From assembly GCF_014117445.1 (NCBI RefSeq), contig NZ_CP059851.1:2604001-2668000 (forward strand): 64,000 nucleotides of DNA. Direction: 5' to 3'. The translations under genes were made by a program, and so were the position numbers. Below are positions 2,563 to 23,263 of the stretch, in pieces. The stretch's first letter is position 1, and each line of letters starts with the position of its first letter. The notes beneath the pieces are model-generated. The model had not been told where the DNA came from and did no database searches. It saw only the letters and a program-made list of their open reading frames with translations. This stretch comes from Sandaracinobacteroides saxicola. Lineage in GTDB: Bacteria; Pseudomonadota; Alphaproteobacteria; Sphingomonadales; Sphingomonadaceae.

Positions 2563-4151
2563 ATCACCTCTCCCGCTGCCTGCGCCCGTGCCACCCGGCT
2601 CGCCTCCGCCGCCGGCAGCCGCCGCCACAATTGCCAGATGCAGAACAGGCTCAGCGGCGCCACCAGGAACAGCGCCATCACGCCCGTTGCCAGGCTGCCC
2701 GTCACCGCGCTCACCTTGCCGGTGAAATAGGGCCCCAGCCCCAGCCCGATCAGCGTCGTGCCGATGAAATAGGTCGCCGTCGCCGCGCCCCGCATCCGCG
2801 GCAGCACCAGGTCCTGGCTGGTCGCCGCGGCGATCCCCACATACATGCTGCCCACCACCGCCGGCACGATGTTGTACAGGTAAAACATCGTTGCACTGTC
2901 GGTGGTGAACATCAGCAGCACGAACGGCGCCGGCACCACGATCGCCAGGCTCGCCACCGCGATCCGCCCCGCCGGATGCCGGCCCTTCGCCCAGTCGGAC
3001 AATCGCCCGCCCATCACCACGCCCAGGAACCCGCCGGCGGCGCCGCTGCCGCCCAGGATCAACCCCGCCACCGCCGGCGTCGCCCCCAGCTCGCGGATGG
3101 CATAGGGCGCCGCCCAGAAGCCCAGCGAGTAACCGACGAACGCCGTCGTGCCGAATCCCACCACCAGAAACAGGAAACTCGGCGTCCCCCAGATCAGCGC
3201 GAAGGTGGCGGGGTCACGCTCCCGCAACCCCTGCGCCCAGGTCGTCACGGCATAGGCACCCGTGCACAGCGCGCCCCATTGCAGCTTGTCGCCGAAGGTA
3301 TTGCCGGAAACCCGCGCCATCAGCACCGCGAACAAGGTCCAGCCCAGCAGCGCCGCCACATTCACCATCAGCGCCCGCCGGCCATATTTCGCCGCATGCA
3401 GCAGCGTCAGCGGCGGCAGCACGCTGGTCAGATCCTCCCAGAACTTGCCCCACACATTCGTCGCAGGCGGCGTCACCATCCCGTCCGCCAGCCCGCGCAC
3501 CGGCTCGCGCAGGGTGGAGACCCACAGCGCCAGCAGCAACCCCGGAATGCCCACCGCCAGGAACGCCGCCTGCCACCCCACCAGCCCCATCGGGCCGCCG
3601 CCGGGAAACGCCTCGTTCCACTGCTGCTTCACCACCGCGCCGATGAACAGGCTCACCCCGCCACCGATGTAAAGGCCCGACGAATAGATGGCGAGCGCGG
3701 TTGCCCGTTTCTCCTTCGGGAACCAGTCGCTCAGCATGCTGAATGCCGCCGGGCTGGCCGACGCCTCGCCGATCCCCACCCCCACCCGCGCCGCCGCGAG
3801 GCCCGTGAAACTGGTGGCAAATCCGCTCAGCGCCGTCATCCCGCTCCACAGCGTCAGGCCCAGCGCCAGCAGCCGCGTGCGCACCCAATTGTCCGCCAGC
3901 CGGCCCAGCGGAATGCCGAACAGGGCGTAAAAGACCGCGAACGCCGTGCCATAGAGGAACCCCATCTCGACATCGCTGACCCCCAGGTCGCGCTTGATGT
4001 CCTCCGCCAGGATCGAGATGATCTGCCGGTCGATGAAGTTGAACATGTAAACGAGCACGAGCACCGACAGCACATACCAGGCATAGCGCCCGCCCACCTG
4101 CTCGCGCGCCGCCGCCTGGTCGGCTTCGCTCATCTCCCCCTGCCCGGCCAT
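2559..4151 (-). CDS. MFS transporter (spinster-like group)
   Basis: This 530-residue membrane protein has about 12 predicted membrane helices and the MFS helix 2-3 loop motif GRLADNWVRTR. The first helix carries FIDRQIISILAEDIKRDLG, a pattern seen in the spinster-like MFS group common in sphingomonads beside catabolic genes. Insertions of about 60 residues in the middle make it longer than the usual 430. The start at 4151 follows GGGGGAGAGAG; an alternative ATG lies six codons later. The downstream SDR overlaps it by 4 bp. Confidence 0.88.
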   Translation of the reverse strand: MAGQGEMSEADQAAAREQVGGRYAWYVLSVLVLVYMFNFIDRQIISILAEDIKRDLGVSDVEMGFLYGTAFAVFYALFGIPLGRLADNWVRTRLLALGLTLWSGMTALSGFATSFTGLAAARVGVGIGEASASPAAFSMLSDWFPKEKRATALAIYSSGLYIGGGVSLFIGAVVKQQWNEAFPGGGPMGLVGWQAAFLAVGIPGLLLALWVSTLREPVRGLADGMVTPPATNVWGKFWEDLTSVLPPLTLLHAAKYGRRALMVNVAALLGWTLFAVLMARVSGNTFGDKLQWGALCTGAYAVTTWAQGLRERDPATFALIWGTPSFLFLVVGFGTTAFVGYSLGFWAAPYAIRELGATPAVAGLILGGSGAAGGFLGVVMGGRLSDWAKGRHPAGRIAVASLAIVVPAPFVLLMFTTDSATMFYLYNIVPAVVGSMYVGIAAATSQDLVLPRMRGAATATYFIGTTLIGLGLGPYFTGKVSAVTGSLATGVMALFLVAPLSLFCIWQLWRRLPAAEASRVARAQAAGEVM

Positions 4152-16380: not shown

Positions 16381-17547
16381 TCACCGCGAAGCACCCCCCT
16401 GCCGCCTCCGCAAATTCCCCCGCGACAGCTCGCTCACCCGCGCCTTCCCCAGCAACCGCATCCCGCGCTCGATCTCGTCGCGTAGCGTCCCCAGCGCCCG
16501 CTCCACCCCCGCCTGCCCGCCGGCCGCCAGCGCGTAGAGGTAGAGCCGCCCGCCCGACACCGCCCGCGCCCCCACGCTCAGCGCCTTCAGCACATGCGTG
16601 CCCCGCGTCACTCCGCCGTCGCAGATAACCTCCACCCGGTCACCCACGGCATCGACGATCTCGGCCAACTGGTCGAACGGCGCCCGCGCGCCGTCGAGCT
16701 GTCGGCCGCCATGGTTGCTCACCATGATCGCCGACGCCCCGATCTCCACCGCCCGTCGCGCGTCCGCCACGCTCATCACGCCCTTCAAACAGAAAGGCCC
16801 GCCCCAAGCCGCGCGGATCGCCTCGGCATCCGCCCAGGACATCGTGGGGTCGAGCATGGTGTTGAAATAATCCTGCACCGACACCGAGGTTTTCGACCCT
16901 TCCACCAAATGGCTTTCCAGGTTGGGCAGCGCGAACCGCTCGCGGAACAGGTAGTTCAGCGTCCAGCGCGGGTGCAGCGCGAAACTCACCGCGCTGGCGG
17001 GCGTCAGCTTCGGCGGGCTGGTGAACCCCGTCCGCTTGCACCGCTCCCGATTGCCACTGACGATCGTATCCACCGTCAGCGCCAGCGCATCGAAGCGTGC
17101 CGCCTTCGCCCGTTCGATCAGCGCCGCGTTCAACCCCTTGTCGCGGTGATAATAGAATTGGAACAGCTTCGGACCGTCGCTCGCCGCACCGATCTCTTCC
17201 AGCCCCACCGTCGCCAGGCTGGAAATGCCAAAGAACGTCCCATATCTCGCCGCCGCGGCCGCCACCGCGCGCTCGCCCCGCCAGTGGAACAGCCGCTGCA
17301 ATGCCGTCGGGCTGGCGAACAGCGGCATCGCGATCCGCCGCCCCAGCACCTCCACCGACAGGTCGACCTCGGTGGTCCCCGCCAGCACATCGGGCACCAG
17401 ATCGACGTCGTCATAGGCTTGCGTATTCCGCCGCCGCGTCACCTCATCGTCCGCCGCGCCATCGATGTAATGGAACACCGGAAACGGCAGCCGCCGCCGC
17501 GCCAGCTCCCGAAAATCCCCGACATTGTGACAATCCGCCAGGCTCAT
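16381..17547 (-). CDS. FMN-dependent alpha-hydroxy-acid dehydrogenase (L-lactate dehydrogenase-like)
   Basis: A 388-residue FMN enzyme. Visible are FPVFHYIDGAADDE at the N-terminus, the Lys region CLKGVMS, and the active-site SNHGGRQLDGA containing the catalytic His, followed by the phosphate-binding CDGGVTRGTHVLKAL and GARAVSGGRLYLY. It oxidises an L-2-hydroxy acid, probably lactate or a relative, and passes electrons to a quinone or oxygen. The start is uncertain: ATG 17545-17547 fits family length, while ATGs at 17583 and 17580 also occur in frame. The C-terminus is basic. Divergent from the Fic gene. Confidence 0.85.
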   Translation of the reverse strand: MSLADCHNVGDFRELARRRLPFPVFHYIDGAADDEVTRRRNTQAYDDVDLVPDVLAGTTEVDLSVEVLGRRIAMPLFASPTALQRLFHWRGERAVAAAAARYGTFFGISSLATVGLEEIGAASDGPKLFQFYYHRDKGLNAALIERAKAARFDALALTVDTIVSGNRERCKRTGFTSPPKLTPASAVSFALHPRWTLNYLFRERFALPNLESHLVEGSKTSVSVQDYFNTMLDPTMSWADAEAIRAAWGGPFCLKGVMSVADARRAVEIGASAIMVSNHGGRQLDGARAPFDQLAEIVDAVGDRVEVICDGGVTRGTHVLKALSVGARAVSGGRLYLYALAAGGQAGVERALGTLRDEIERGMRLLGKARVSELSRGNLRRRQGGASR

Positions 17548-17643
17548 CACCAACGGATAGGACGGCCCCGGACGTTTCATCATCAACCCATAGCGTCGCG
17601 CACTGCCCGGCGCGACTCCCCGTTCGCACGGGCGCGACGACGC

Positions 17644-17699
17644 ATGGATATTTATGGGTCGATTTGCGGCTATGGTTTCACTCATGGATATTTACGGGT
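17644..17699. promoter_or_regulatory. 16-bp direct repeats upstream of fic, possible operator
   Basis: ATGGATATTTATGGGT (17644-17659) and ATGGATATTTACGGGT (17684-17699) are 40 bp apart and differ at one base. A third partial copy, ATGGATAT, begins at 17706 and contains the proposed fic start codon. The spacing and position suggest a binding site for the Fic protein's own C-terminal DNA-binding domain or another regulator. Confidence 0.4.
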
Positions 17700-17705
17700 A
17701 TAGAT

Positions 17706-18764
17706 ATGGATATGCCCATCAATACGGCCTCACTGGTCATCACCCCGCAAATGCTCTCGCTCATCGCCGAGATCGACGAGTTCAAAGGCGCGTGGCGCGC
17801 ACTGGGGACTCTTGCACCTGATCGTCTTTCGGCGTTGCGGCGCGTGGCGACGATTGAAAGCATCGGCTCTTCGACGCGGATCGAGGGAAGCAGGCTGTCT
17901 GACGGCGATGTCGAGCGGCTGCTGTCCAACATCGAAGTCCGCCACTTCGCCACCCGCGACGAGCAAGAGGTGGCGGGCTACGCCGAAGTCATGGAAACCA
18001 TCTTCGCCTCGTTCGACGCGATGGCGCCGACCGAGAACCACATCAGGCAACTGCACCGCGACCTGCTGGTTCACAGCAGCAAGGATGCGCGCCATCGCGG
18101 CAGCTACAAGACCAGCACCAACCATGTCAGCGCCTTCAATGCCGACGGCAAGGAAATCGGCATCGTGTTCCAGACGGCGACGCCGTTCGACACGCCGCGC
18201 TTGATGGCGGAGCTGGTCGAATGGCTGAACGAGACGCTCGATCAGAAGCAGCTTCACCCGCTTCTTGTGACGGCCATCTTCATCGTCGTCTTTCTCGAAA
18301 TCCATCCGTTTCAGGACGGCAATGGCCGCCTGTCGCGGGTGCTCACCACCTTGCTGTTGCTGCGCAGCGGCTATGCCTATGTGCCCTATTCCTCGCTCGA
18401 AAGCGTGATTGAGGCCAGCAAGGAAGGCTATTATCTCGGGCTTCGCCGGACGCAGGGGACAATCCGCAGCGACGCGCCCGCATGGGAGCCATGGATCGTC
18501 TATTTCCTCCAGTCGCTACGCCAGCAAAAAACAAGGCTAGAGGCGAAACTGGCCCGCGAACGGTTGATGGTAGAGCGATTGCCGGAACTTGCACTTCAGA
18601 TTCTCGATCTGGCGAAAGCACATGGGCGCATCACCAACAGCCAGGTCGTCGCCCTGACGGGCGCAAACCGCAACACGGTGAAGAAGCATTTGCAGCTGCT
18701 GGTATCGGCCCGCCACCTTGTCCAGCACGGCAGCGGCAAGGCGACATGGTACAGCCGCGCCTGA
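17706..18764 (+). CDS. Fic family protein with C-terminal winged-helix domain
   Basis: A 352-residue Fic protein with the catalytic motif HPFQDGNGRLSR (His activates the target hydroxyl; consensus HPFxxGNGR) near residue 200. The N-terminal part holds SSTRIEG, matching the inhibitory motif (S/T)xxxE(G/N), so it is a class II Fic that is probably self-inhibited. Residues about 295-350 form a winged-helix domain (NSQVVALTGANRNTVKKHLQ). Such enzymes transfer AMP from ATP to proteins. Start ATG 17706 lacks a strong ribosome site; ATG 17712 is an alternative. Direct repeats upstream may be its operator. Confidence 0.85.
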   Translation: MDMPINTASLVITPQMLSLIAEIDEFKGAWRALGTLAPDRLSALRRVATIESIGSSTRIEGSRLSDGDVERLLSNIEVRHFATRDEQEVAGYAEVMETIFASFDAMAPTENHIRQLHRDLLVHSSKDARHRGSYKTSTNHVSAFNADGKEIGIVFQTATPFDTPRLMAELVEWLNETLDQKQLHPLLVTAIFIVVFLEIHPFQDGNGRLSRVLTTLLLLRSGYAYVPYSSLESVIEASKEGYYLGLRRTQGTIRSDAPAWEPWIVYFLQSLRQQKTRLEAKLARERLMVERLPELALQILDLAKAHGRITNSQVVALTGANRNTVKKHLQLLVSARHLVQHGSGKATWYSRA

Positions 18765-21522: not shown

Positions 21523-21642
21523 GGCCGCAGCTTATCGCGCCGGCGTGAATATGCCAGCCGCTTTGCTGCGCCGCAGCACGACGCCCGCGATGCCCGCTGC
21601 ATAACATGCAGCATAATATGCAGTGGCGTGGGCAACGAATAA

Positions 21643-22020
21643 TGGCGGCCGGTGTCGCCACCGGCCGCCACTGTGTCGCGCCTTCGGGCCTCGATGCAAC
21701 CGGCACTTGCCTTCCGGCCAGCCTTGTCGCCTGACGCTCGCGCTACGGCACGTTTCGCGTTTCCCATCAATGCTGTTTCCAGCCCATCCGGTTCCCGCCG
21801 GAGCCGATCCAGACCTCCCGTTGCCGCGTCCCTCAGCCGGCGTTTCCACCTGCCCTGGTCCGCTTCGCAACCGGCGCCATTCCGGCCCCCGCCTCCTGCC
21901 CTTCCAGCGCCGGGCTTGCGCCCTTTGCCGGTCCTTCATTCGGCCATAACCGCCTGTTTTCCTTCGCCGTTTCCGGCTCCGTTCCACTCTTGGCTACAAC
22001 CGGATGCTCTCACCTTAGCC
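21643..22020 (-). ncRNA. Candidate large structured RNA with several GNRA-loop hairpins
   Basis: No convincing protein is encoded between ppc and the MFS gene. On the minus strand at least five short hairpins with GNRA loops occur within 270 nt: GCCG-GAAA-CGGC (21966-21977), GGGC-GCAA-GCCC (21912-21923), GGTG-GAAA-CGCC (21839-21850), GCTG-GAAA-CAGC (21772-21783) and GCC-GGAA-GGC (21709-21718). The strand is purine-rich, and the segment ends with a 12-bp hairpin (21643-21654 with 21659-21670) followed by a T-containing stretch. A GGCTA/TAGCC pairing can close the 5' part near 22016. I could not match it to RNase P RNA, tmRNA, 6S or a known riboswitch. Confidence 0.45.
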
Positions 22021-22048
22021 CGAGTCGTCCAAGCGGAATATGACGCTT

Positions 22049-23263
22049 TCACCCTGTGGATAACGGGGATATCGGGGATATCTTCGCCGGCACGCGCGGC
22101 AAAGTCGCGATCAACGCCGCCGCCAGCAGCAGCAACCCGCCAGTCAGCGTGAAGGCGCCGGCGAAATGCCCCGTCACCTCCGCCCAGCGCGTCGCCACCA
22201 CCGGCCCCGCCGCGCCCGCCAGCGTCTCCAGCACCAGCAGCGCCATCAGGATGCACGCCACCGCCGGCCCGGCGAAGGTGGAGGAGCTGAGCAGCTGCAA
22301 GGAGGCATAGTTCGCCCCCCACCCCACGCCGGCCAGCAGCAGCGCCGGCATCACCCATGCCGCATCCCCCCGCCCCAGCCACAGCAACCCCGCCGCGAAC
22401 AGCAGGATCGCCACCACCTGCACCCGCTGCGCCCCCACCCGGTCGGCGATCGCGCCGCCCAGCAGTTGCGCCACCATCGCCGCGGTGAAGAACAGCCCCA
22501 GCCCGCCGGCCGCCTGCGCCACGCTCTGCCCCAGCTCCCGCGTGCCGAACAGCACCAGGTTGCTCGTCACCGCGGTCAGCGCGAACAGCGTCAGCCCCGC
22601 CGCCACCCCCAGCTGCCAGAAGCGCCGCGTCCTCAGCGCCGCGGACAGCGCCGCCGTCGCCCCATCGGCCACCGGCGCCGCCGCGCGCGGCGCCGGCGCA
22701 TGACCGCCCACCACGAACCACATCAATGGGATCACCGCCGCCACCATCAGCGCCAGCCAGGGAAAGCTCGCCCGCCACCCGAGGCTCTCCAGCATCGCCG
22801 CGGTCAGCGGCGGCAGCAGCGCATTGCCCAGGCTGGACGCCGCCAGCACCACCCCCAGCGCCAGCCCCCGGTGGCGGTCGGTCAGCGTCGACACCAGCAC
22901 CACCACCGCGATCAACCCGGACAGGATCAGCCCCACCCCGAACAGCGCATGAATGGCATAGAGCTGCCACAGCGCCTGCGCCTGCCCATAGACCGCCAGC
23001 CCGCCGGCGATCAGAACCAGCCCTGCCACGATCGGCGCACGCACGCCCCATCGATCGATGATCGCGCCGCCGAACGGCGCCAGCGCCGCCACCGCCAGAT
23101 ACATCACCGTCTCGCGGAACTTCAGCGCGGTGGGCGTCACCCCAAGGTCGGCCAGCAACACCGGATCGAACACGAACAGCCCGCCATAGGTCAACGCATT
23201 GTTCAGCAACAGCATCAGCGCCGCCGACAGCACGATCGCCCGCACGCGGCGATCAGTGGTCAC
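22049..23263 (-). CDS. MFS transporter
   Basis: A 404-residue carrier with about 12 membrane helices; the motif GGAIIDRWGVR sits after helix 2 and GGAIADRVGAQR after helix 8, the two MFS half-repeats. The GTG start (23261-23263) overlaps the stop of the upstream isomerase-like gene by 11 bp and is preferred over the earlier open frame. As last gene of the minus-strand arm of the catabolic cluster it probably moves the substrate or an intermediate through the inner membrane. Confidence 0.85.
   Translation of the reverse strand: MTTDRRVRAIVLSAALMLLLNNALTYGGLFVFDPVLLADLGVTPTALKFRETVMYLAVAALAPFGGAIIDRWGVRAPIVAGLVLIAGGLAVYGQAQALWQLYAIHALFGVGLILSGLIAVVVLVSTLTDRHRGLALGVVLAASSLGNALLPPLTAAMLESLGWRASFPWLALMVAAVIPLMWFVVGGHAPAPRAAAPVADGATAALSAALRTRRFWQLGVAAGLTLFALTAVTSNLVLFGTRELGQSVAQAAGGLGLFFTAAMVAQLLGGAIADRVGAQRVQVVAILLFAAGLLWLGRGDAAWVMPALLLAGVGWGANYASLQLLSSSTFAGPAVACILMALLVLETLAGAAGPVVATRWAEVTGHFAGAFTLTGGLLLLAAALIATLPRVPAKISPISPLSTG

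Follow-up and report, generated by a model that had tools for sequence, protein, structure and literature searches.

What is encoded in the gene-free gap between ppc and a transporter gene of Sandaracinobacteroides saxicola? We analyzed a window of 64,000 nucleotides (nt) of this genome (contig NZ_CP059851.1, positions 2,604,001 to 2,668,000), in which two minus-strand genes flank positions 21637-22020: ppc (PF00311, phosphoenolpyruvate carboxylase) and a gene for an MFS transporter (PF07690). The original prediction, made from the letters of the window, saw in this gap a probable large structured RNA without an assignment. Our results give good support to a stand-alone noncoding RNA gene on the minus strand of 21641-22001 (the locus spans genome coordinates 2,625,640-2,626,080). 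We further consider it likely that the product is a trans-acting structured RNA and that its transcription is tied to replication by DnaA and CcrM/GcrA; with low confidence, we would suggest a scaffold or decoy role.

The folding of the region was the first line of evidence. The minus strand of 21637-22020 folds at -179.9 kcal/mol, which corresponds to a z score of -5.2 with none of 100 shuffles as good, compared with a z score of -2.5 for the plus strand. When hairpins capped by GNRA loops were counted only with stems of at least 4 base pairs (bp), the minus strand contained five, against 0.24 expected from dinucleotide shuffles. None of 500 shuffles reached five, and no such hairpin occurred on the plus strand or in two flanking coding pieces. 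Both the proposed number of five and the claim that it exceeds chance are borne out, and the three GAAA hairpins and the GCAA hairpin are real; the proposed GGAA hairpin, by contrast, has a stem of just 3 bp, and its place is taken by the GCGA loop of the terminator. Over 75 members of the RNA family, 201 GNRA hairpins were found where 21.1 were expected. Of 76 members, 38 have such a hairpin at 24-36 nt from the start of the RNA, whereas the following two intervals have 3 each and the opposite strand 0.6%. The GC hairpin at 21643-21670, suggested earlier as a possible transcript end, was likewise recovered: it has 12 bp, or at least 14 bp when the outer pairs (21641-21672) are included, and resembles an intrinsic terminator.

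As the original prediction anticipated, no known family accounts for this RNA. Scanning the whole window with cmscan against 4227 Rfam 15 families, together with a permissive scan of the region, gave none at the gathering level; the region scored best with Transposase-2, whose 22.8 bits (E 0.034) fall short of the cut-off of 42.7. Rfam 15 also returned no family match at the RNA of any homologue scanned. At one homologous locus (L095, 71-123, minus strand), the scan found the serC leader (RF00517; 48.2 bits, cut-off 35), an ordinary cis-regulatory RNA.

We then examined relatives of the RNA in 398 genomes of the GTDB family Sphingomonadaceae, covering 96 genera and including Sphingomonas and Sphingosinicella. 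Single-sequence blastn recovered mostly the terminal hairpin, and in one genome also a match to the 5' part, located on the same strand some 690 nt upstream. The loci share an anatomy in which a conserved upstream element is followed by a variable body and then by the conserved terminal hairpin. Homologues with both halves, the promoter core and the terminator, occur in at least 35 of the 96 sampled genera, at one or two per genome (usually one) and with lengths of 0.3-0.8 kilobases (kb). Some genomes have two RNA gene copies (L095-L099): in genus g22 they form a tandem with a separation of about 400 nt, and in g54 the strands are opposite and the distance is 3-4 kb. A model of the 5' region (R1) matched 90 of the 398 genomes at E <=0.01; a promoter model (R2) brought in further loci, in which the boxes are arranged differently; and a model from the GANTC core to helix P2 that excluded the boxes (R3) matched 230 of 398 at E <=0.1, the weakest of these being doubtful. 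We used a model-independent test, with non-family loci excluded, that looked 200-950 nt downstream for a GNRA- or UUCG-capped hairpin of at least 11 bp with a T-rich end. It was passed by 69 of 76 R1 members, 16 of 18 added loci, and 15/20 and 13/18 of the weaker in-family matches, compared with 5 of 1520 random positions. Among the loci found by the box-free R3, those with the terminator carry a box-like site too. The in-family R3 matches G066, G122 and G094 lack both boxes and terminator, and for this reason we took them as chance.

Outside the family, R2 gave weak or box-only matches alone over 385 genomes of the class, the window's own genome aside; those inspected were origin-like, gapR or dnaB-like promoters, or chance. 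R3 over 163 genomes of the order gave one out-of-family match, without terminator or boxes. These scans thus yielded no convincing member of the RNA beyond the family, and plasmids and phages searched with the region by blastn gave no match.

Is the conserved product RNA or protein? The terminal hairpin forms 14 of 14 pairs in all 14 sequences, with double changes at 6 pairs, and none of 500 shuffles scored as high. For the domain of helices P1 and P2, the covariation score was 0.252, compared with 0.135 (standard deviation 0.028) in shuffles. All eight groups of genus-level alignments folded better than their column-shuffled versions (z -5.2 to -14.8), one example showing 59 double-change pairs against 32.6 (standard deviation 5.5). 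Such pairs exceeded the maximum of 30 shuffles in g21, g51, g78, g54a, g92 and, by one, g22, and did not in g86 and g82; the g54a alignment contains G149, a misplaced member of genus g82. The interior of the RNA evolves fast. In three genus-level alignments substitutions were spread evenly over the three codon phases, and 24 of 31, 17 of 17 and 10 of 12 indels were not multiples of 3, so that three-base periodicity was not seen and most indels broke the codon step. Thus, of the two outcomes named in advance as fatal to the structured-RNA claim, neither occurred: homologues exist and their helices covary, and codon structure is absent.

The best-conserved part of the unit is the promoter at 22004-22080, just beyond the region first proposed, which contained the body of the RNA and missed its 5' control region; the conserved unit starts at about 22080, overlapping the final codons of the MFS gene. 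Its DnaA boxes and GANTC site, the chief clue to regulation, had been overlooked. The last of three tandem 9-mers, TTATCCACA at 22055-22063, is a perfect DnaA box, and the exact 19-base form TATCCCCGTTATCCACAGG occurs a single time in the genome. The consensus of 69 sequences reads TATCCCCGATATCCNCGTTATCCACAGG, a spacer, TTTNCGCNTGGNGCGACTCGG, about 5 nt and CGTGANAGCTTC, the last 9-mer of the TATCCCCGATATCCNCGTTATCCACAGG part being the DnaA box TTATCCACA. Genera such as g30, g39, g61 and g69 carry separate or inverted boxes (TTATCCAC, GTGGATAA) in place of the tandem array. Overall, the exact octamer TTATCCAC/GTGGATAA was present in the 140 nt before GANTC at 106 of 121 loci, compared with 4 of 1972 in the control. 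Box starts cluster at -65/-64, -55 to -53, -47/-46, -37/-36 and -27/-26, in steps of about 10 bp and in both orientations; consensus boxes thus keep a constant phase relative to the promoter. Where the array is tandem, it mostly starts 53/54 or 43/44 nt before GANTC, two spacings that differ by one helical turn. A second, weaker box copy (TCTCCCCGTTATCCACAGC) was seen in the same genome (L062, about 1500-1525; genome 2301497-2301537), and no RNA was recognized after it.

The GANTC site carries a further motif. YGAKTCG is the extended motif of GcrA-activated promoters (PMC7987155), and CGACTCG, whose reverse complement is CGAGTCG, was found in the window and in most members. Variants are mostly CGACTCA and CGAATCG; the former keeps GANTC but, read on the opposite strand, no longer fits the extended motif at its first base. 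The genome has a gene for GcrA (PF07750, E 2.2e-43). The features of the locus are collected below.

Table. Features of the RNA locus, in coordinates of the window
Feature	Position	Strand	Remarks
RNA gene (noncoding)	21641-22001	minus	about 360 nt; probable start about 21997, give or take a few nt; ends with the terminator hairpin
Three tandem 9-mers, TATCCCCG-ATATCCCCG-TTATCCACA-GG	22053-22080	minus	extends into the 3' end of the MFS gene
-35-like element TTGGAC	22027-22032	minus	aligned in 69 and 76 sequences
GANTC site (CcrM target) CGACTCG	22021-22027	minus	between the -35- and -10-like elements; reverse complement CGAGTCG fits the GcrA motif YGAKTCG
-10-like element GAGCAT	22004-22009	minus	17 nt from the -35-like element; not canonical
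5' domain	21942-22001	minus	helix P1 (22001-21992 with 21951-21942) around GAAA hairpin P2 (21977-21966), loop 21970-21973
GCAA hairpin loop	21916-21919	minus	variable middle; in the GNRA hairpin count
GAAA hairpin loop	21843-21846	minus	variable middle; in the GNRA hairpin count
GAAA hairpin loop	21776-21779	minus	variable middle; in the GNRA hairpin count
Terminal hairpin AGTGGCGGCCGGTG-GCGA-CACCGGCCGCCATT	21641-21672	minus	intrinsic-terminator-like, GNRA-capped (GCGA 21655-21658); same architecture in nearly all members

The neighbors of the RNA are unrelated genes that differ among genera, and none is common beyond a few; the synteny with ppc is not shared in the relatives looked at. Because neighbors are not shared, regulation of an adjacent gene in cis is unlikely. 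Elsewhere in the window, 17295-18764 (plus strand) holds a gene for a Fic/DOC-family protein (PF02661) with a DUF977-like C-terminal part.

How does the promoter relate to the replication machinery? hemE is the usual site of the alphaproteobacterial origin. In this genome, oriC was placed at hemE, at about 3,144,300, by the order rho-hemE-ppsR-maf (hemE by model, the others by sequence reading). The RNA lies 518 kb away, with a direction of transcription that follows the fork; the locus as oriC itself was ruled out by the position of hemE. Measured against the DnaA consensus, the boxes of oriC are weaker than those of the RNA promoter. Box arrays with several GACTC sites stand just upstream of hemE, the probable oriC, in Insolitispirillum and Terasakiella (L167, L178). 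In the alphaproteobacterial genus g162, a similar array with GANTC sites stands just before gapR (PF10073; L274, about 2821-2930, minus strand), and L239/L349, L241 and L246 have near-identical gapR proteins with the same array placement. Sequence inspection of another alphaproteobacterial family (L243, about 1507) revealed a similar array before the start codon of a DnaB-helicase-like gene. We strongly infer from these sequence features that DnaA and GcrA would control the RNA promoter. Given the boxes, the GANTC/YGAKTCG site, the gcrA gene and the arrays at hemE, gapR and the DnaB-like gene, the RNA probably belongs to a replication-linked DnaA/GcrA circuit.

The following mechanism would fit the motifs and the structure. 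An RNA of about 360 nt would be transcribed from its own promoter and end at the GNRA-capped, terminator-like hairpin. DnaA would bind the upstream TTATCCACA boxes, whose positions shift by about one helical turn between loci, and methylation by CcrM of the GANTC site between the -35- and -10-like elements would allow GcrA-sigma70 to fire the promoter. On these premises, the RNA would be expected in an interval around replication initiation or fork passage. With its conserved 5' GNRA hairpin domain, its 3' hairpin and its fast-changing GNRA-rich middle, it might act as a ribonucleoprotein scaffold or a protein-binding decoy in replication or chromosome organization, rather than through one conserved antisense seed; no such seed was recognized in the family. 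The scaffold or decoy role is our preferred guess, held with low confidence, and is preferred because GNRA-hairpin architecture at both ends is conserved and not one unpaired sequence. A more ambitious version would see in the RNA a family-wide, previously undescribed branch of the DnaA regulon under DnaA and CcrM/GcrA, ancestral to Sphingomonadaceae, with one round of synthesis per replication cycle and a ribonucleoprotein role in replication or chromosome organization; it is tentative, and we would sooner doubt it than assert it.

Several observations weigh against a replication-linked structured RNA. The -10-like element is not canonical, and one strong member (G140) has no GANTC in its core. 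Models R1 and R2 included the boxes, so box presence in their members is partly by construction. Without the terminator, the bodies fold modestly (median z -2.15, 40 of 73 below -2); a single consensus fold for the whole family was not found; and a helix closing the 5' and 3' ends, considered as a candidate, was predicted in only 18 of 73 folds. The unusual -10-like element and the fast-evolving body would also suit a structured RNA with a housekeeping or regulatory role outside replication, whose boxes are the target of some other protein or, no more than marginally, of DnaA. We regard this as unlikely, though it is the most serious competitor: 106 of 121 promoters carry exact DnaA-box octamers, which occur in both orientations and with helical spacing, and GANTC stands at a fixed place. 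These features argue against this reading, as does the same array at hemE, gapR and the DnaB-like gene in other orders.

Since its boxes are nearer the DnaA consensus than those of the genome's own oriC, the locus could instead work as DNA, either titrating or reactivating DnaA (datA- or DARS-like) or as a secondary origin, with transcription incidental. This is improbable, because oriC lies at hemE 518 kb off, the GNRA excess is confined to one strand (minus, 5 against 0.24 expected; plus, 0), and nearly all members have a terminator downstream, for which a DNA site has no use. Still less probable is a selfish or mobile RNA element, HEARO/OMEGA-like or intron-like, which would explain why neighbors vary by genus and why some genomes hold two copies in tandem or a few kb apart. 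A stand-alone HEARO/omega-type RNA had been raised in the original prediction; we do not retain it, as no IscB/TnpB gene is adjacent and neighbors differ between genera. No nuclease, reverse transcriptase or transposase genes were noticed in the flanks read, Rfam gave no intron or HEARO match, and the usually single gene retains its promoter with each copy. A 151-amino-acid frame with a GTG start does span the region, but substitutions equal in the three phases and the indel counts given above leave a decayed or fast-evolving small protein gene with a negligible chance.

What is new here is the RNA family, judged by Rfam 15 and the open-access papers searched; cell-cycle noncoding RNAs and large structured RNAs are known kinds. 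A word search of open-access papers, among them those on CcnA, EcpR1, Caulobacter cell-cycle noncoding RNAs and bacterial structured-RNA surveys, turned up no account of this RNA and no combined DnaA/GANTC promoter on a family-wide RNA. Large conserved bacterial RNAs without an Rfam entry are rare, and several earlier ones came without a functional clue. This RNA brings a strong one, as replication-initiator boxes and a cell-cycle methylation site are kept while nearly all else changes. It gives studies of RNA in the cell cycle of alphaproteobacteria a testable starting point, and the family, that of Sphingomonas and its relatives, includes strains that are tractable in the laboratory.

OLE, GOLLD, ROOL and HEARO are large ornate bacterial RNAs, long, conserved, stand-alone and structured. 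The RNA described here is likewise long, conserved and stand-alone, but has no Rfam match, other hosts and no associated gene, and its most conserved part is the promoter. CcnA of Caulobacter (PMC8959179) is also an alphaproteobacterial noncoding RNA tied to the DnaA/GcrA/CcrM/CtrA circuit. By its description, however, CcnA is set apart: it lies at the replication origin and is presumably CtrA-activated, whereas 518 kb separate this RNA from oriC, and inspection of the window promoter and the 69-sequence consensus revealed no CtrA box (TTAA-N7-TTAA). The rhizobial EcpR1 (PMC4414408) is another trans-encoded alphaproteobacterial RNA of the cell-cycle circuit; it is described as a stress-induced small RNA that modulates cell-cycle regulation, while the present RNA exceeds it in size, is rich in GNRA hairpins and has a promoter with DnaA boxes and GANTC. 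A further likeness is to the promoters controlled by DnaA and, in the GcrA model that PMC7987155 cites from Haakonsen et al., by GcrA/CcrM: the same DnaA boxes, the same GANTC between -35- and -10-like elements and the same extended YGAKTCG on the other strand, here placed to drive a noncoding RNA.
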